Origin: an uncultured Agathobaculum sp.
GTDB taxonomy: Bacteria > Bacillota > Clostridia > Oscillospirales > Butyricicoccaceae
Reading direction: 5' to 3'
Length of the DNA: 64,000 nucleotides
Assembly (NCBI GenBank): GCA_944384725.1
Contig: CALWUJ010000002.1
Coordinates: 78,437 to 142,436 of the forward strand
Within the stretch, counting starts at the first letter, position 1, and every line of letters begins with the position of its first letter. Positions 10,935 to 26,126 of this stretch are shown piece after piece. The notes under the pieces were generated by a model that saw only the letters and a program-made list of their open reading frames with translations, had not been told where the DNA came from and searched no databases. The position numbers were made by a program, and so were the translations under genes.

Positions 10935-11933
10935 ATGGGATACGACAGAAAACTATTGGCGGCAGCGCGGCGTGAGCTGGAGCGCGAACGCACAGCGCGC
11001 AGCGAAGCATTTGAGGCGCGTCGGCGTGAGGTGTATGCGCGGGAGCCGCGCATTCGTGCGATTGACCGCACGCTGTCGCAGACGGCAGCTTCCGTGCTGC
11101 GCGCGGCGCTCAATACGGGCGGCGATCCTGCGGCGGCGATTGAGCAGCTGCGCGGGCAGAATCTGGCTTTGCAGGCTGAGCGCGCTGAACTGCTGCGCGG
11201 CATGGGGCTGGATGCCGACTATTTGACCGAAAAACCGATGTGCGAAAAGTGCGGTGATACGGGTTATGCGGGCAGCGCGACCTGTGAATGCATCAAAACG
11301 CGGTATGCCGCGCTGCTGCGGGAGCAGTTGTCCGCGGTGCTGCCCATCCGTGACCAGAATTTTGCGCATTTTCGTATGGATTACTATTCCACCCGGCCGG
11401 ATGCGCGGCTGGGTTTGTCGCCTCGGGAGAATATGGAATACAATCTGGATGAGTGCAAAGCGTATGCCGCACAATTCGGGGCGCATTCGCCCAATCTGCT
11501 GCTCTACGGTTCGACCGGACTGGGCAAGACCTTTTTATCCTCCTGCGTGGCGAAAGCCGTGGCGGCGCGCGGCTTTTCCGTGGCGTATGACACCGCAATC
11601 AATATTGTTGCCGCATATGAGACGATCAAATTCGGCAATGGTGACGGCGAAGCCGCAGCCGAGCGTGCTGCACGGTATGAGCGGGCCGATTTGCTCATCA
11701 TCGACGATATGGGTACGGAGATGGGAACGGCGTTCACCGTGTCTGCCTTGTACAACCTCATCAATAACCGCTTGATGGCGGGACGGCCGATGATCGTCAA
11801 TACCAATCTGCCGCCCGAGGCGCTGGCGGAAAAATATTCGCCTGCCGTAGCGTCCCGTTTGCTTGGCGAGTTTGTGTCGCTGCGCTTTTTTGGGGACGAT
11901 ATCCGCCTGATGAAAAAGCAAAAGAAATTGTAA
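10935..11933 (+). CDS. Helicase-loader ATPase, DnaI/DnaC type
   Basis: A 332-residue AAA+ ATPase. The N-terminal part is a basic helical region with a Cys cluster (C103, C106, C117, C119) like the zinc-binding domain of DnaI that contacts the helicase. The C-terminal ATPase has Walker A GSTGLGKTFL (from Gly192), Walker B LLIIDDMGTE (Asp257/258) and the sensor segment IVNTNLPPEAL. It belongs with the DnaD-domain gene immediately upstream and should load the DnaB/DnaC-type replicative helicase. IstB transposition ATPases are similar, but there is no transposase beside it and the zinc domain argues for DnaI. Confidence 0.88.
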   Translation: MGYDRKLLAAARRELERERTARSEAFEARRREVYAREPRIRAIDRTLSQTAASVLRAALNTGGDPAAAIEQLRGQNLALQAERAELLRGMGLDADYLTEKPMCEKCGDTGYAGSATCECIKTRYAALLREQLSAVLPIRDQNFAHFRMDYYSTRPDARLGLSPRENMEYNLDECKAYAAQFGAHSPNLLLYGSTGLGKTFLSSCVAKAVAARGFSVAYDTAINIVAAYETIKFGNGDGEAAAERAARYERADLLIIDDMGTEMGTAFTVSALYNLINNRLMAGRPMIVNTNLPPEALAEKYSPAVASRLLGEFVSLRFFGDDIRLMKKQKKL

Positions 11934-11941
11934 ACAATTCT

Positions 11942-11995
11942 TTCACAGCACGTTCAAAGTTTATTCACATATTCCCCGACAGAATGGGGTATACT
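11942..11995 (+). promoter_or_regulatory. Promoter and response-regulator box of sRNA unit 1
   Basis: Hexamers TTCACA (11942-11947), TTCAAA (11953-11958) and TTCACA (11964-11969) are spaced exactly 11 bp apart. Exactly 20 bp separate the last from the -10 box TATACT (11990-11995). There is no independent -35 box, as at PhoB/PhoP-activated promoters. The same layout recurs at four other promoters in this window. Confidence 0.75.
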
Positions 11996-12001
11996 AAGCA
12001 T

Positions 12002-12135
12002 GTCGATAAGGGAAGCCGCAATCCCGAATCGACAGCCTACCGATCTTTTATTTCTCTTTTACCCCCCTTTATTTTGTGAAATGAGTGAAAAACCCCCGGT
12101 TCCATTTCCCCCATGGGCCGGGGGTTTTTCCTGCC
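12002..12135 (+). ncRNA. sRNA unit 1 of a tandem triple array
   Basis: Predicted ~130-nt RNA. The 5' hairpin pairs GTCGAT (12002-12007) with ATCGAC (12028-12033), with inner GGGA/TCCC (12010-12013 and 12022-12025). A single-stranded pyrimidine stretch with ACCCCCC (12061-12067) follows. The terminator stem GAAAAACCCCCGG (12087-12099) with CCGGGGGTTTTTC (12118-12130) carries an inner CCAT/ATGG pair and a loop containing TTTCCCCC. The two exposed C runs could pair with Shine-Dalgarno sequences of target mRNAs. The 5' 75 nt are nearly identical to unit 3. Transcription start is inferred from the -10 box. Confidence 0.7.
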
Positions 12136-12166
12136 TTTGGAACGGCTCGGGCAATGTCATAAACCT

Positions 12167-12220
12167 TTCAAAGTCTGTTCAAAAGCTGTTCACACTTTTC
12201 CTTCCGGGGTGCAGTATACT
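12167..12220 (+). promoter_or_regulatory. Promoter and response-regulator box of sRNA unit 2
   Basis: TTCAAA (12167-12172), TTCAAA (12178-12183) and TTCACA (12189-12194), each 11 bp apart, then exactly 20 bp to TATACT (12215-12220). The bases between the repeats differ widely from units 1 and 3 while the hexamers and spacings are kept, which indicates selection on the protein-binding site. Confidence 0.75.
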
Positions 12221-12226
12221 ATGATT

Positions 12227-12380
12227 GTCGGAAGGGAAAGACACCAGCCCAACCGATACCCCTTTTTTACATCATAATGTTTTCTTTCTTTCACCTTTTC
12301 TTTTTATCCTCTTTTTCATTTTGCATTGGCGTGCGCCCTGTTTTCCATTTCCCCCCTTTTGGAAAACAGGGCGTTTCCCA
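12227..12380 (+). ncRNA. sRNA unit 2 of a tandem triple array
   Basis: Predicted ~150-nt RNA, the most diverged of the three. Its 5' hairpin uses TCGG (12228-12231) with CCGA (12253-12256) and GGG (12234-12236) with CCC (12248-12250). Relative to units 1 and 3 the outer stem has changed on both sides so that pairing is kept. A pyrimidine-rich segment with ACCCC follows, then the stem CGCCCTGTTTTCC (12334-12346) with GGAAAACAGGGCG (12361-12373). Its loop contains TTTCCCCCC. The T tract after the stem is short. Confidence 0.65.
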
Positions 12381-12412
12381 TGTCTGTGGGAAAATTGGCA
12401 GGAAACAATTCC

Positions 12413-12466
12413 TTCACAGCATATTTATAATCTGTTCACACTTTTTCCGGCAGGATGGGGTATACT
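12413..12466 (+). promoter_or_regulatory. Promoter and response-regulator box of sRNA unit 3
   Basis: TTCACA (12413-12418), TTTATA (12424-12429) and TTCACA (12435-12440), 11 bp apart, then exactly 20 bp to TATACT (12461-12466). Confidence 0.75.
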
Positions 12467-12472
12467 AAGCAT

Positions 12473-12614
12473 GTCGATGAGGGAAGTCGCAATCCCAAGT
12501 CGACAGCCTACCGATCTTTTATTTCTCTTTTACCCCCCTTTTTCAAATCTGTGTAGTGAATGGGCAAAGCGCCGTCATCTCGTTTCCCCCGACGAGATGA
12601 CGGCGCTTTCCTGT
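12473..12614 (+). ncRNA. sRNA unit 3 of a tandem triple array
   Basis: Predicted ~140-nt RNA. The 5' hairpin pairs GTCGA (12473-12477) with TCGAC (12500-12504) and GGGA (12481-12484) with TCCC (12493-12496). The exposed TTTTACCCCCC segment (ending near 12538) is shared with unit 1. The terminator has a perfect 17-bp stem (12566-12582 with 12593-12609) with the loop TTTCCCCCGA. The stem sequence is unrelated to those of units 1 and 2, while the C-rich loop is kept. Confidence 0.7.
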
Positions 12615-12636
12615 TATGCGGCGACCGGATTGCCCC

Positions 12637-12665
12637 TTGCGCAAGGGAATACAATGCGGTATACT
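12637..12665 (+). promoter_or_regulatory. Promoter of mrp
   Basis: TTGCGC (12637-12642), a 17-bp spacer and TATACT (12660-12665). It lacks the 11-bp repeats of the three preceding promoters and looks like an ordinary sigma-A promoter. Confidence 0.6.
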
Positions 12666-12706
12666 AAAAAATAGGCAAGAAAAGATATGTTAGGAGTTGT
12701 TGTAGT

Positions 12707-13525
12707 ATGGGTTGCTCGCATAACTGCGAATCCTGCTCTGCGGGCTGCGGCGGCGAAAAAAGCCTGAAGGTCGCGGCAAATCCCGCGGCTTCGGTCAAAA
12801 AGGTGATCGGCATTGTGTCCGGCAAGGGCGGCGTGGGCAAAAGCCTGCTGACCTCGATGATGGCTGTCGGTATGACGCGCAAGGGCTATACCTGCGGCAT
12901 TCTGGATGCAGATATCACCGGCCCGTCCATTCCCAAGACCTTCGGCGTGCATGATAAGCTGGAAGGCTGCGAGGAAGGCATTCTGCCCGCGCGCAGCGAG
13001 GGCGGTGTGCAGATGATTTCGATCAATCTGGTGCTGCCGAACGAGGATGACCCGGTCATTTACCGAGGGCCGATCATCGCGGAGACGGTCAAGCAGTTCT
13101 GGTCGGATGTGGTGTGGGACGACGTGGATTTCCTGTTTGTCGATATGCCGCCCGGCACGGGCGATGTGCCGCTGACCGTGTTCCAGTCCCTGCCGGTGGA
13201 CGGCATTCTGGTCGTCACCTCGCCGCAGGATCTGGTCAGCATGATCGTGGGCAAGGCGGTCAAGATGGCGAAAATGATGAACATCCCGCTGCTCGGCGTG
13301 GTGGAGAATTACAGCTATCTGGAATGCCCGGACTGCGGCAAGCACATTTCGGTCTTTGGCGAAAGCCATGTGGATGATGTAGCGGCGGAGTACGGTCTGC
13401 CTGTGCTGGCCAAGCTGCCGCTTGATCCCAAGCTGGCCGCAGCAGTGGATGCTGGCAAAATCGAAGATGCCAAGCTGCCGGATGCGCTTAAGGATGCGCT
13501 CAAGACGGTGGAGGGCCTTCGATGA
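12707..13525 (+). CDS. mrp: Mrp/NBP35-family Fe-S cluster carrier ATPase
   Basis: A 272-residue P-loop protein of the Mrp/ApbC family, which assembles or carries Fe-S clusters. It starts with a short Cys cluster (C3, C7, C10, C14) and then has the deviant Walker A VSGKGGVGKSLL, DADITGPSIPK, the switch stretch VDMPPGTGDVPLTVFQS, and the C-terminal CPDC motif (C207, C210) that binds the bridging cluster in the dimer. A NifX-like protein overlaps its stop codon by 4 bp (ATGA), so both are made together. Confidence 0.92.
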   Translation: MGCSHNCESCSAGCGGEKSLKVAANPAASVKKVIGIVSGKGGVGKSLLTSMMAVGMTRKGYTCGILDADITGPSIPKTFGVHDKLEGCEEGILPARSEGGVQMISINLVLPNEDDPVIYRGPIIAETVKQFWSDVVWDDVDFLFVDMPPGTGDVPLTVFQSLPVDGILVVTSPQDLVSMIVGKAVKMAKMMNIPLLGVVENYSYLECPDCGKHISVFGESHVDDVAAEYGLPVLAKLPLDPKLAAAVDAGKIEDAKLPDALKDALKTVEGLR

Positions 13526-22363: not shown

Positions 22364-23044
22364 GTGGCAAAAAAGATACTCATCGTCGAAGACGAAGCAA
22401 ATATTCGCGAGCTGCTGCGCCTGTATCTGGAGCGCGAGGGCTACGCGGTGGTCGAAGCGGCAAACGGTGTGGAGGGCATCAAACTGTGGAAGTCCGAAAA
22501 GCCGGATATGCTGCTGCTGGACGTGATGATGCCGGTGATGGACGGCTGGGCGGTCTGCAAGGAGATCCGCGCAGAAAGCGATGTGCCGATCATCATGCTG
22601 ACGGCCAAGGGCGAGACTGCAGACCGTGTTTCCGGTCTGGAAATGGGTGCGGATGATTATATCGTCAAGCCGCTCGAGATGCCGGAGGTCATTGCGCGCG
22701 TGCGCGCGGTGTTCCGCCGCATGGCGCCGGATGATGCACCTGAGAAGCTGACGTTTGACAATCTGGTGATCGACAAGCAGGCGTATGATCTGGTCATCAA
22801 GGGCAAGCGCGTGGATGCGCCGCCCAAGGAGATCGAGCTGCTGTACTATCTTGCTTCCAGCCCGAACCGTGTGTTCACGCGCGCGCAGCTGCTGGACGAT
22901 GTGTGGGGGTTTGACTATTTCGGCGACACCCGTACGGTGGATGTGCATGTTAAACGCCTGCGCGAAAAGCTGGAAGGCGTTTCGGATAAATGGGAGGTCA
23001 AGACCGTTTGGGGCGTCGGCTATAAGTTCGAGACCAAGGAGTAA
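22364..23044 (+). CDS. OmpR-family response regulator
   Basis: A 226-residue regulator with an N-terminal receiver domain and a C-terminal winged helix. The receiver has acidic residues in ILIVEDEANIR, the phosphorylation site Asp53 in LLLDVMMPVMDG, and T/K of the switch in IIMLTAKGE and DDYIVKPLE. The winged helix includes LLYYLASSPNRVFTRAQLLDDVWG and RTVDVHVKRLREKLE. It starts with GTG 22364 behind a GGGG site and is followed 3 bp later by its sensor kinase. OmpR-type regulators of the PhoP, CiaR and WalR kind bind direct hexamer repeats at 11-bp spacing, as found upstream of this operon, of htrA and of the sRNA array. Confidence 0.95.
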   Translation: MAKKILIVEDEANIRELLRLYLEREGYAVVEAANGVEGIKLWKSEKPDMLLLDVMMPVMDGWAVCKEIRAESDVPIIMLTAKGETADRVSGLEMGADDYIVKPLEMPEVIARVRAVFRRMAPDDAPEKLTFDNLVIDKQAYDLVIKGKRVDAPPKEIELLYYLASSPNRVFTRAQLLDDVWGFDYFGDTRTVDVHVKRLREKLEGVSDKWEVKTVWGVGYKFETKE

Positions 23045-23047
23045 ACC

Positions 23048-24514
23048 ATGGGCAGACGCAGCTTTTTTTTCAAAAATTATGTTACGCACTTGCTGCTGAT
23101 CGTGTGTGCGTTTGCAATAGCGGGCGGCGTGTTTTATTACCAGATGGGCAACTATGCACTGCAAACCAAGCAGACCGAACTGCGCACAACCGTGCAGAGT
23201 CTGGCGGAGCAGACGCAGTTGATGCTGGGCACGGATTCCGAAGTGATTCGGGAAATTTACATGCTGTCGATCAGCACGGTGGCCAAGGAGGATGCCATCA
23301 CGGTCTATGTCACCGACCGGGACGGTGTGATCCAGATGATCGCCGGACCGGACGGAGAAGCGGCAAAGGTGTCGGGCTGGATGATCCCGCAGGAAGTGAC
23401 CGCGCAGATTCGCAAGACGGGCAGTTATGCCGAAGTCGGTCAACTGGGTGTATTGGGCGACCGATCCAGTTACACGGTGGGTACCAGCGTGCAGGGTGAC
23501 AACGGCGAGGTCAGCGCGATGGTCTTTGTCTATACGCAGGACGCGACCGCCGCAGGCGTGGTGCGCCATTCGACGCAGACGCTGGTGCTCATTCTGCTCA
23601 TTACGCTCGCGGTGGCGCTGGTGCTATCCTTTATTCTGTCGCAGCACATGACGCGTCCGCTCAAGGTGATTGCAGCGGCGGCAAAGGAGTTTGCCTCGGG
23701 CAATTTTGATGTGCGCGTGCCGGAGGATAATCGCTGCTATGAGATCGACGAACTGGCGGTATCCTTTAACAATATGGCGCGGGATCTCGACCAGCTGGAA
23801 GAACTGACGCGCGGCTTCATTTCCAACGTCAGCCATGAATTCAAAACCCCGATGACAACGATCGGTGGTTTTGTCGATGGCATGATCGACGGCACCATCC
23901 CGGTCGAGCAGCGGGATAAATACCTGCGCATCATCGCGGAGGAGACGCGACGTTTGTCCCGCATGGTCAACCGCATGCTGGATGCGGCCAAGATCCAGTC
24001 GGGCGAACTGATCTTAAACCCGGCTCCGTTTGACTTCTCCGAAATGACCAGCCAGATCATTCTGTCCTTTGAACAGAAAATCGAGAAAAAACATCTTGAG
24101 GTCGAGTGCGATCTGGATGACCGCTTGATGGTCATGGGCGATCGCGACCATCTGTATCGCGCGGTGTATAATCTGGTGGATAATGCAGTAAAATTCATCA
24201 ATGAGGGCGGCAGATTGTGCCTGCGGGCGCATCCGGAGAATAACTTCTGCGCGTTCTCTATCACCAATACCGGTATCGGTATTTCGCCCGAGGACTTGCC
24301 GCATGTGTTTGGCAGGTTCTACAAGGCGGACCGTTCGCGGTCGATGGACAAAACCGGCGCAGGACTGGGGCTGTATATTGTCAAGAATATCATCAATCTG
24401 CACGGCGGAGAGATCTCTGTGCGGTCGGACGGCGGCGAAACCGAATTCTCCTTTACGCTGCCGTTGGCGCCACAGCAGCTATCCGGCAATGCCAAAACCC
24501 CGCAACAGAAATAA
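23048..24514 (+). CDS. Membrane sensor histidine kinase
   Basis: A 488-residue kinase. Order: membrane helix 1 (about 12-30), an extracytoplasmic sensor of ~145 residues, membrane helix 2 (about 178-198), HAMP (about 200-250), HisKA with the phospho-acceptor His263 in ISNVSHEFKTPMTTI, and an ATPase domain. The latter has the N box VYNLVDNAVKF, the G1 box ITNTGIGISPEDL, the F box FGRFYKADRSRSMDKTGAGLGL, and a G2 region before HGGEISV. It pairs with the response regulator 3 bp upstream. The signal is unknown; the likely control of htrA points to cell-envelope or secretion stress. Confidence 0.95.
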   Translation: MGRRSFFFKNYVTHLLLIVCAFAIAGGVFYYQMGNYALQTKQTELRTTVQSLAEQTQLMLGTDSEVIREIYMLSISTVAKEDAITVYVTDRDGVIQMIAGPDGEAAKVSGWMIPQEVTAQIRKTGSYAEVGQLGVLGDRSSYTVGTSVQGDNGEVSAMVFVYTQDATAAGVVRHSTQTLVLILLITLAVALVLSFILSQHMTRPLKVIAAAAKEFASGNFDVRVPEDNRCYEIDELAVSFNNMARDLDQLEELTRGFISNVSHEFKTPMTTIGGFVDGMIDGTIPVEQRDKYLRIIAEETRRLSRMVNRMLDAAKIQSGELILNPAPFDFSEMTSQIILSFEQKIEKKHLEVECDLDDRLMVMGDRDHLYRAVYNLVDNAVKFINEGGRLCLRAHPENNFCAFSITNTGIGISPEDLPHVFGRFYKADRSRSMDKTGAGLGLYIVKNIINLHGGEISVRSDGGETEFSFTLPLAPQQLSGNAKTPQQK

Positions 24515-24576: not shown

Positions 24577-24630
24577 TTCAAAAAATATTCATATTGTTTT
24601 CAACAAACCGCCACAATGACGGGTTAGAAT
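24577..24630 (+). promoter_or_regulatory. htrA promoter with response-regulator box
   Basis: TTCAAA (24577-24582), TTCATA (24588-24593) and TTCAAC (24599-24604) stand 11 bp apart, then exactly 20 bp to TAGAAT (24625-24630). This is the same three-repeat, 20-bp-gap layout as at the sRNA promoters, and lies 62 bp behind the kinase stop codon. Confidence 0.75.
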
Positions 24631-24662: not shown

Positions 24663-26126
24663 ATGGATGACTTTAACAATAAAAATACCAATATGACGCC
24701 GGAATCGAACGGCGATGCGCATACCGAGCCGCAGCAGCCCACGATGGAGCAACCGGCAGCAGAAACACAGTATACCGAACCGCGCACACCGTATCAGACG
24801 CCGGTGCAGCATCCGGAATATCGTCAGACGACACAGCAGTCGTATGATGGCACACCGTATACGCAGGACCCGATGGGTGCAGCGCCCCAGCCGCAGCCCC
24901 CAAAAAAGAAAAAGCATGGCAAGGCAATTGCGCTGGGTCTTGGCGGTGTTGCAGCGGCGTGCCTGCTGTTTGCAGGCGGCGCGCTGATCGGGCATATGGT
25001 GAACACGGGTGACGGCGGTGCCGTGACCGCAAACGCGCAGGCGGGCGATCTGCCCACCGTGCAGCTGAATGAGACACCCGACCTCGATCCGGATAATTAC
25101 GATGTGGTAAACGGTCTGGCGGGTGAGGAAATTTACAAAAAGGTCAGCCCGTCCATCGTTTCGGTCATTGCATCCACCGCGAGCGGAACAGGTTCCGGCT
25201 CGGGCGTTATCATGAGCGAGGATGGCTACATCATCACCAACAACCATGTGGTCGAGGGTGCGCAGAGTGTGACTGTACAGTTGAGCGACAGCACGCAGTA
25301 TGACGCCACAATCATTGGCACAGATGAGCAGACCGATCTGGCAGTACTCAAGGTCGAGCCGGAAGGCAAACTGACCGCTGCGGAATTCGGTGACTCGGAT
25401 GAGCTGCAGCCCGGCGAATACGCATATGCGATTGGCTCGCCCGGCGGTGTGCAGTTTGCCAATACGATCACCGGCGGCCGCATTTCTGCCATCAATCGTG
25501 ACGTGACCATCAACGACCGTGTCATGACCCTGATCCAGACTGACGCTTCCATCAACCCCGGCAACTCCGGTGGTGCGCTGATCAACAAGTACGGTCAGGT
25601 AGTCGGTATCACCTCTGCGAAGCTGTCCAGCAGCGGCTTTGGTGAGGCTTCGGTCGAGGGCATGGGCTTTGCCATCCCGATCAACACGGCCAAGGAGGTC
25701 GTTGACGAGTTGATTGCCAACGGCTATGTCGCAGGCCGTCCGTCCATTGGCATCACGGGCAGCAATGTGGAGTCTGCTGATGGCAGCATTGCAGGCGTTC
25801 AGGTTTACTCGATCGACTCGCGTGCCAAGGCAGCAAGCGAAGGCTTGCAGGTGGGCGATATCATCACCGCGGTCAACGGTACGCCGACCCCGACTATGGA
25901 TGACATCAACGCGATCAAGGAAGATATGAAGGCAGGCGATAAGCTGACGCTGACGGTTTACCGCATTTCGACCGGCAAGATGGTCAACCTGACTGTGACG
26001 TTGACCGATGCGCACGATCTGGAGGGTGAAGACCCGGCAGCGGAAAGCAGCCAGAACAGCCAGAGCAGTCAGTATGGCAACGGCGGTTCGCAGTACCAGA
26101 ACCCGTTCTCGTACTTTGGATGGTAA
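24663..26126 (+). CDS. htrA: HtrA/DegP-family serine protease
   Basis: A 487-residue membrane-anchored protease. It has a cytoplasmic Pro/Gln/Thr-rich N-terminus (1-80), a basic KKKKHGK stretch, one membrane helix (about 88-112), a trypsin-like domain with the triad His195 (ITNNHVVEGA), Asp225 (DEQTDLAVLK) and Ser302 (NPGNSGGAL), and one PDZ domain (about 365-450). The tail is Ser/Gln/Asn-rich. HtrA degrades misfolded exported proteins at the membrane surface. Its promoter carries the same repeat box as the two-component operon just upstream, so it is probably a main target of that system, as htrA is for CiaR and CssR in other Firmicutes. Confidence 0.95.
   Translation: MDDFNNKNTNMTPESNGDAHTEPQQPTMEQPAAETQYTEPRTPYQTPVQHPEYRQTTQQSYDGTPYTQDPMGAAPQPQPPKKKKHGKAIALGLGGVAAACLLFAGGALIGHMVNTGDGGAVTANAQAGDLPTVQLNETPDLDPDNYDVVNGLAGEEIYKKVSPSIVSVIASTASGTGSGSGVIMSEDGYIITNNHVVEGAQSVTVQLSDSTQYDATIIGTDEQTDLAVLKVEPEGKLTAAEFGDSDELQPGEYAYAIGSPGGVQFANTITGGRISAINRDVTINDRVMTLIQTDASINPGNSGGALINKYGQVVGITSAKLSSSGFGEASVEGMGFAIPINTAKEVVDELIANGYVAGRPSIGITGSNVESADGSIAGVQVYSIDSRAKAASEGLQVGDIITAVNGTPTPTMDDINAIKEDMKAGDKLTLTVYRISTGKMVNLTVTLTDAHDLEGEDPAAESSQNSQSSQYGNGGSQYQNPFSYFGW

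Follow-up and report, generated by a model that had tools for sequence, protein, structure and literature searches.

A family of C-rich small RNAs (sRNAs) that is controlled by an htrA-linked two-component system, and whose C-runs block ribosome-binding sites in stress, is probably encoded by three tandem units in the genome of an uncultured Agathobaculum species. The units occupy positions 11942–12614 of the window, that is, of the whole stretch of 64,000 nucleotides analysed here (assembly GCA_944384725.1, contig CALWUJ010000002.1, positions 78,437 to 142,436, forward strand). That the three units are independent small-RNA genes is well supported by sequence comparison, and the strong comparative support suggests a real and apparently undescribed sRNA family. 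Their three-box promoter has the same geometry as that of htrA, which is located directly behind the response regulator and kinase genes of a two-component system in the same window; an earlier, sequence-only reading had missed both the common promoter and this link.

Architecture of the three units

The anatomy of the units is established. They lie head to tail between a helicase-loader open reading frame (ORF, 10935–11933) and mrp (12707–13525), and each consists of a promoter, a 5′ hairpin, an open pyrimidine-rich linker and a strong terminator with a C-rich loop. Within each unit, three hexamers at an 11-bp period are followed by a 20-bp gap, the −10 hexamer TATACT and, 7 nt on, the 5′ hairpin, with the predicted 5′ ends (12002, 12227 and 12473) counted 7 nt past the last base of each TATACT. 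The features are listed below.

11942–11969, + strand: unit 1 activator boxes TTCACA-N5-TTCAAA-N5-TTCACA, invariant in the ten genomes compared
11990–11995, + strand: unit 1 −10 TATACT, 20 bp past the last box
12002–12130, + strand: sRNA 1, predicted transcript, from the fold; match to model R1 at 12000–12130, 141.7 bits (the unit is among the 25 sequences of R1)
12002–12033, + strand: sRNA 1 5′ hairpin with loop AGCCGCAA, from the fold and covariation
12062–12067, + strand: sRNA 1 linker C-run, its CCCC identical in all 25 sequences compared from six genera
12087–12130, + strand: sRNA 1 terminator, with TTTCCCCC at 12105–12112
12167–12194, + strand: unit 2 activator boxes TTCAAA-N5-TTCAAA-N5-TTCACA
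12215–12220, + strand: unit 2 −10 TATACT, 20 bp past the last box
12227–12380, + strand: sRNA 2 (divergent type), predicted transcript, from the fold; R1 match at 12225–12377, 38.2 bits (outside the R1 alignment)
12227–12257, + strand: sRNA 2 5′ hairpin, from the fold
12327–12380, + strand: sRNA 2 terminator, with TTTCCCCCC at 12348–12356
12413–12440, + strand: unit 3 activator boxes TTCACA-N5-TTTATA-N5-TTCACA, 16/18 positions invariant
12461–12466, + strand: unit 3 −10 TATACT, 20 bp past the last box
12473–12610, + strand: sRNA 3, predicted transcript, from the fold; R1 match at 12471–12610, 141.3 bits (the unit is among the 25 sequences of R1)
12473–12504, + strand: sRNA 3 5′ hairpin, from the fold
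12533–12538, + strand: sRNA 3 linker C-run
12566–12609, + strand: sRNA 3 terminator, with TTTCCCCC at 12583–12590

The whole-unit folds (−47.5, −39.0 and −54.5 kcal/mol for units 1, 2 and 3, respectively) comprise the 5′ hairpin, a mostly open linker and the terminator. Together with the occurrence of the array throughout the genus, they confirmed the tandem arrangement of promoter, 5′ hairpin and terminator described in the sequence-only reading, whose coordinates were right, and its observation that all three terminator loops contain TTTCCCCC was borne out. The single-stranded C run that it had assigned to every unit takes the form ACCCCCC in units 1 and 3. Unit 2 is divergent in that it keeps the plan and has CCCC directly after the hairpin (12259–12262), without the ACCCCCC run of the other two. 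UCCC exists in the 5′ hairpin, but within the paired 3′ strand, and the conserved loop of this hairpin is AGCCGCAA. A scan for a standard sigma-70 −35/−10 promoter found 0 against 1.2 expected, and the same scan picked up only one of the three terminators; the unit promoters consist of a −10 plus upstream direct repeats in place of a standard −35.

Conservation and covariation within the genus

Conservation and covariation of the units are likewise established. The genus, Agathobaculum in the sense of GTDB (g1), was represented by 25 genomes; the window genome measures 1.94 Mb and is 78% complete. BLAST matched the array in 25/25 of these genomes, and a covariance model (R1), built from 25 sequences with units 1 and 3 among them, gave two to five matches in each of them and one or two per genome outside the genus. 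From the genus loci, 78 distinct units were gathered that had a −10-like hexamer and boxes matching at least 12/18 positions; their last box is TTCACA in 66, TTCATA in 10 and of another form in 2. Independently of this selection, the window genome was compared with the nine genomes that had the next best matches. Invariant in all ten were 52/54 box positions, 18/18 positions of the −10s, 161/183 of the linkers (49/53, 55/69 and 57/61 for units 1–3), 75/95 of the 5′ hairpins (26/32, 25/31 and 24/32) and 103/142 of the terminators (34/44, 33/54 and 36/44), and invariance was low in the spacers between boxes and −10 (18/60) and between the units (18/68; 15/36 and 3/32). The 20-bp spacer is thus fixed in length and largely free in sequence, as expected for the geometry of an activator and RNA polymerase. 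In one complete genome (L070, G005:C1:3385269-3389751), four promoter copies extend over 4.5 kb, and two gaps (about 2.4 and 1.6 kb) may hold other genes; the array is compact in many other genomes of the genus. Among cultured relatives, A. butyriciproducens DSM 100391 and A. desmolans ATCC 43058 both carry the array.

Covariation was assessed in A2, a structure-blind MAFFT alignment for which 25 type-A copies were chosen. Pairing was found in 91.7% of cells (79.4% in shuffles), and two-sided changes occurred in 16/24 pairs. The covariation score of 0.475, compared with 0.242 for shuffled alignments, was reached by 0/500 shuffles, and slid partners gave at most 0.138. Most of the signal lies in the terminator (13/15 pairs), with three pairs from the 5′ hairpin. 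The sequence-only reading had claimed covariation from the three units alone, which are thin evidence; the claim itself was upheld by the relatives. Among 77 folded units, the linker CCC is present in 66, where the C-run has a mean unpaired probability of 0.89 (above 0.8 in 58/66), and CCC occurs in the loop of 51/60 terminators found by script.

A promoter geometry shared with htrA

The consensus of the sRNA promoters is TTCACA-N5-TTCAMA-N5-TTCACA, in 11-bp phase and exactly 20 bp from the −10. When a matrix derived from all 78 sRNA promoters, including those of the window, was run over the window, its three sRNA promoters scored 33.4, 32.5 and 28.7 bits, and the fourth site (24577, 17.6 bits) was located in front of htrA; once shifted-register readings of these promoters were set aside, the next site scored 6.8 bits. 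The features of the htrA locus are as follows.

22364–23044, + strand: OmpR-type response regulator (PF00072 and PF00486), the proposed activator
23048–24514, + strand: sensor histidine kinase (HAMP, HisKA, HATPase_c)
24577–24604, + strand: htrA promoter boxes TTCAAA-N5-TTCATA-N5-TTCAAC, matrix score 17.6 bits, geometry conserved
24625–24630, + strand: htrA −10 TAGAAT, 20 bp past the last box
24663–26126, + strand: HtrA/Do-type serine protease (Trypsin_2 plus PDZ), proposed to be co-regulated

That htrA shares this promoter geometry is established. In 40 htrA loci (23 from the genus and 17 others), the best site for the first two boxes was taken per locus and the distance to TANAAT was left free between 14 and 26. 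Nine loci were unscorable (seven without the kinase motif in the locus and two without a site), and in 31/31 scorable promoters (20 g1, 4 g2, 4 g4 and 3 g3) the distance from boxes to −10 was 20. With at most one mismatch, the three-box pattern had 78 matches in the 25 genus genomes: 75 fell within the array and one at an htrA promoter (G023). The reversed pattern had 6 matches in the same genomes. HtrA matches of at least 360 bits were found in 23/25 genus genomes and in sampled genomes of g2, g3, g4 and g7, as well as in one of the two g5 genomes, the match in the other being cut by a contig end. Sampled genomes of genera negative for R1 gave weaker HtrA matches only, up to 280 bits; outside g1, this survey covered 30/62 genomes.

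C-rich RNA candidates also lie beside htrA in further genera. A second model (R2), built from six genera, produced two weak hits immediately behind an htrA, one in G060 of g8 (E 2e-4) and one in G078 of g13 (E 9e-4), and two more g8 genomes (G056 and G061) have a similar C-rich stretch and terminator after htrA. In the three g8 genomes, the htrA stop is followed by box-like hexamers, a common stretch with ATCCCCCTTACAAA and a terminator. The promoter is clear in G061 (TTCACA-N5-TTCACA-N5-TACACA-N20-TATTAT), and G078 has a weak match (TTCAAG-N5-TTCATG-N5-GCAACA-N20-TATAGT).

Distribution beyond the genus

R1 matched 52/87 genomes of the family, Butyricicoccaceae, and 6/15 genera (g1 25/25, g2 4/6, g3 12/12, g4 7/7, g5 2/2 and g7 2/2); such a run of a covariance model had been proposed in the sequence-only reading. 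At 20 non-genus loci that were read, the promoter matrix scored at least 12 within 100 nt upstream in 17. The sRNA follows a helicase-loader-like ORF in 8/12 loci with listed neighbours, mostly before an ORF that appears SbcD-like by eye, and lies elsewhere or next to masked sequence in the other 4/12. As relatives mostly share the helicase-loader-like neighbour, the sRNA locus is judged to be old. In 25 chosen sequences from six genera, ten columns are invariant, including the four of the linker CCCC and the TGT of the following TTTTGTGAA. Since the 5′ hairpin varies between genera and several genera lack C-runs in the terminator loop, the linker C-run is likely the functional core of the RNA family.

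Within the family, additional sRNA-like genes with this promoter lie dispersed at other loci (L235 in G045 and L234 in G051), and the L235 copy has several C-runs. The promoter pattern with at most three mismatches was found in at least 57/87 family genomes and at least 9/15 genera, against a total of 6 matches with the reversed control; some of the places hit by the promoter pattern are not sRNAs. At least 12/25 genus genomes carry such a site of varying form, like TTTACA-N5-TTCAAA-N5-TACAAA-N20-TATAGT (e.g., G000:C40:210-263 in the window genome). In the three loci read (L063 in G000:C40, L064 and L065), it precedes a 664-aa ORF, which we take to be gyrase-B/topoisomerase-IV-like; the site may mark an additional member of the regulon, or it may be an ordinary promoter that is conserved.

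Across the order, the promoter pattern with at most one mismatch was found in 26/394 genomes, four of them among the 351 outside the family. Behind it, an RNA-like sequence and a terminator are present at L237 (G271:C1:1348450) and L229 (G250:C9:2612), and the hairpin of the former contains GCCGCA, like the loop in the Agathobaculum units. In G104, of another family of the order, the pattern (L239, G104:C33:64305; one mismatch) precedes a presumably Hsp20-like gene, and a small ORF lies behind it in G372. R2 matched 39/394 genomes, seven of them outside the family. In G403, which belongs to another family of the order, two tandem C-rich RNAs are convincing (L301, G403:C5:93821-94197, − strand). 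They combine two hairpins with C-loops, a CCCCC run that is open and a terminator whose loop is C-rich; upstream of them are two boxes, a degenerate third and then 20 bp to TATACT. Seven weak hits remain. Five of these (L302, L303, L306, L307 and L310, in G406, G293, G160, G210 and G049, the last being a second match in a family genome) lie in antisense to a gene start that has a Shine-Dalgarno-like motif, as would happen if the linker were similar to a ribosome-binding site read on the other strand, a count that has no control; the hits in G280 and G379, which are not antisense to such starts, are uncertain or due to chance. A scan of named records returned 28 matching stretches, of which four (Pseudomonadales, Bacteroides faecis, Ruminococcus flavefaciens and Burkholderiaceae) are presumably due to chance.

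Relation to known small RNAs

At Rfam 15 gathering scores, no sRNA was matched in the window or in five loci, and 17 further loci gave one match, a tRNA. LhrC, for which Rfam presumably holds a model, is absent among the matches up to E 5 in 11900–12710. The 6C RNA (RF01066), an actinobacterial RNA with hairpin loops rich in C, reached 22.2 bits, below its gathering score of 47. RsaE/RoxS (RF01820), a Gram-positive sRNA whose UCCC motif is described as binding targets (PMC4132741), reached 17.1 bits against 79.

The sequence-only reading stated that no named family has exactly this plan, which was too strong, as Listeria LhrC and the streptococcal csRNAs have it. The two-component system LisRK is mandatory for expression of LhrC1–5 in Listeria monocytogenes (PMC4132741) and is implicated in htrA transcription (PMC11236296); in Agathobaculum, such control is only proposed. 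Like LhrC, the units exist in multiple copies (two to five per genome in 25/25 genomes) and carry C-rich motifs in linker and terminator loop. In contrast to LhrC, the 5′ hairpin loop in this genus has no C-run, three 11-bp-phased boxes are present, where the 2014 paper reports that no LisR consensus had been identified, and the host is of a different class. The same paper describes the effect of LhrC on lapB as independent of Hfq (PMC4132741). In Streptococcus, CiaR binds 11-bp-phased TTTAAG-N5-TTTAAG at sRNA promoters and also controls htrA, and the csRNAs typically have two stem-loops with an unpaired region complementary to the Shine-Dalgarno (SD) sequence (PMC3091779, PMC8317062); a tandem csRNA pair is reported in S. 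sanguinis (PMC8186281). The published csRNA search rule asks for TTTAAG twice and a distance of 10 bp to the −10, whereas three TTCACA-like boxes and 20 bp are found here. The linker differs, and the unpaired csRNA regions are also complementary to AUG. The regulator of the Agathobaculum units may, like CiaR, control htrA too, given the same box geometry before htrA in all 31 scorable promoters of 40 loci.

By analogy, the plan is that of LhrC and the csRNAs: two-component control, multiple copies, unpaired segments that are C-rich or SD-complementary, and htrA in the same system. By the tests made (no Rfam match; other boxes, spacing and conserved sequences), the units belong to neither family, and the LhrC, csRNA and Agathobaculum circuits may be either homologous or convergent. 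Among the records listed in searches of the open-licence literature, none concerned an sRNA of this kind in Agathobaculum, Butyricicoccus or Oscillospirales. In E. coli, the envelope-stress regulator sigma-E induces DegP, an HtrA-type protease, and sRNAs together; that system differs in using a sigma factor, in the Gram-negative envelope and in its unrelated RNAs.

Proposed mechanism and alternative explanations

From these comparisons, we infer transcription of the units, the regulator, the signal, the blocking of ribosome-binding sites and the class of targets, as follows. The three units would be independently transcribed genes for regulatory sRNAs of about 130–154 nt, belonging to a family amplified in the genus. 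Their activator would be a response regulator, with the product of the gene next to the kinase gene (both within 22364–24514) as the likeliest candidate; it would bind the three 11-bp-phased boxes and recruit RNA polymerase to the −10 without a standard −35. htrA and the sRNAs could thus be switched on together, presumably by envelope or secretion stress. In each RNA, the 5′ hairpin would be protective, the open linker would usually carry the conserved C-run, and the terminator loop would, in this genus, usually show a second C-run. The C-runs may pair with G-rich ribosome-binding sites and lower the translation of target mRNAs, probably those of secreted or surface proteins, and HtrA would meanwhile clear misfolded ones.

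The same sRNA genes could instead be driven by the phosphate regulator PhoP/PhoB and act in phosphate starvation. PhoP/PhoB sites are also 11-bp-phased direct repeats, and the TTCACA-N5 repeats resemble Pho boxes; moreover, the best model for the htrA-linked regulator is PhoB, although at 240.7 of 296.2 bits it is under the cut-off, as is the case for each of the best 25 of 105 NCBIfam models. This explanation is nevertheless very unlikely, since a PstS-type match above cut-off exists in 1/25 genus genomes, yet the sRNAs are in 25/25; six PstS-like full-match loci (of 30 fetched) have no site above 5.1 bits, compared with 28.7–33.4 at the sRNA promoters, and the promoter geometry is found at htrA instead. 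A separate observation concerns TIGR02136 (phosphate-binding), which matches in two order-swapped pieces (model positions 163–294 before 34–157) at G000:C2:15679-16437, outside the window, and in many genus genomes, as in a permuted or different binding protein. Titration of an RNA-binding protein or of another RNA by the sRNAs, in place of pairing with ribosome-binding sites, is unlikely, though less so. Conserved unpaired C-runs and tandem copies would suit such a sponge, and Hfq is encoded in 19/25 genus genomes (14/15 near-complete ones; none found in the 78%-complete window genome), so that a chaperone is available. Protein binding is also raised as a possibility by the LhrC authors. On the other side, their paper treats UCCC as a presumed hallmark of sRNAs that act by blocking translation initiation in low-GC bacteria (PMC4132741), and the CsrA-type motif GGA is scarce (1, 3 and 1 copies in units 1, 2 and 3) and is not a repeated loop motif.

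A role in cis, as attenuators or leaders of the downstream gene, was considered because mrp follows the units in the same orientation and each of them ends in a terminator. Every unit, however, has its own promoter and terminator, and the next gene in other genera is a different one (the SbcD-like ORF) or is not co-directional; by longest-ORF calls, the next ORF is convergent or oppositely directed in L165, L172 and L235. A cis leader of mrp, now highly improbable, was rejected on this genomic context, which supports action in trans, as the sequence-only reading had suggested; its emphasis on C-rich loops holds mainly for this genus. Units 1 and 3 do fall within ORFs (12000–12224 and 12225–12674), but short conserved peptides are hardly conceivable as their product: the anchor distance modulo 3 is 29/17/10 over 56 units, a frame that is not kept and on which coding was rejected, and the pairing covaries.

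Several points weigh against regulation by the htrA-linked system and blocking of ribosome-binding sites. Target prediction with the linkers, an approach suggested in the sequence-only reading, had no specificity for the 51 window ORFs: start regions paired at −23.0 kcal/mol and random 60-mers at −19.1, but reversed linkers did equally well (−22.5), so that the preference for start regions reflects composition only. Pairing of the linker with the htrA leader, seen by eye, was not upheld (htrA ranked 41/51 as a target). The choice of regulator follows from its position next to htrA and from promoter geometry, and the genome may hold other OmpR-type regulators. The 31 htrA promoters with the 20-bp distance are related and not independent, their third box is degenerate, and those of g2–g4 score low with the sRNA matrix, though the geometry holds. 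Box conservation among the 78 units is partly by construction, since these were chosen by their boxes; the ten-genome comparison is unaffected. Three of the 20 non-genus loci read, all from g3, have weak boxes (promoter-matrix scores of 9.1, 8.1 and 5.8), terminator-loop C-runs are absent in several genera, and the sRNAs are present without an HtrA match at E 1e-50 in two genus genomes (G004, 96% complete, and G017, 80%). For the candidates beside htrA, R2 hit only 1/4 g8 and 1/3 g13 genomes sampled, and the promoter is clear in only G061 of the four; G060 and G056 allow a 20-bp reading, but other distances score equal or better. Furthermore, the kinase-adjacent htrA (L260, L261 and L265) and the sRNA-adjacent htrA (L308, L311 and L312) of g8 are different copies.

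Biological meaning

An HtrA-linked two-component system combined with C-rich sRNAs that block ribosome-binding sites might be a recurrent envelope-stress module of Gram-positive bacteria and a counterpart of the sigma-E/DegP/sRNA system of E. coli, a generalization that we put forward tentatively and regard as somewhat doubtful. It would be known in Streptococcus (CiaR) and Listeria (LisR) and occur here in Clostridia with its own RNA family, with sRNA genes beside htrA in further genera and the RNA family reaching another family of the order (G403). If true, an sRNA family together with its likely regulator and likely stress signal would be known for gut butyrate producers, which would also be the third lineage where an HtrA two-component system is tied to multicopy C-rich sRNAs. 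A general Gram-positive solution, in which misfolded exported proteins are degraded while their synthesis is halted, would thereby become testable.
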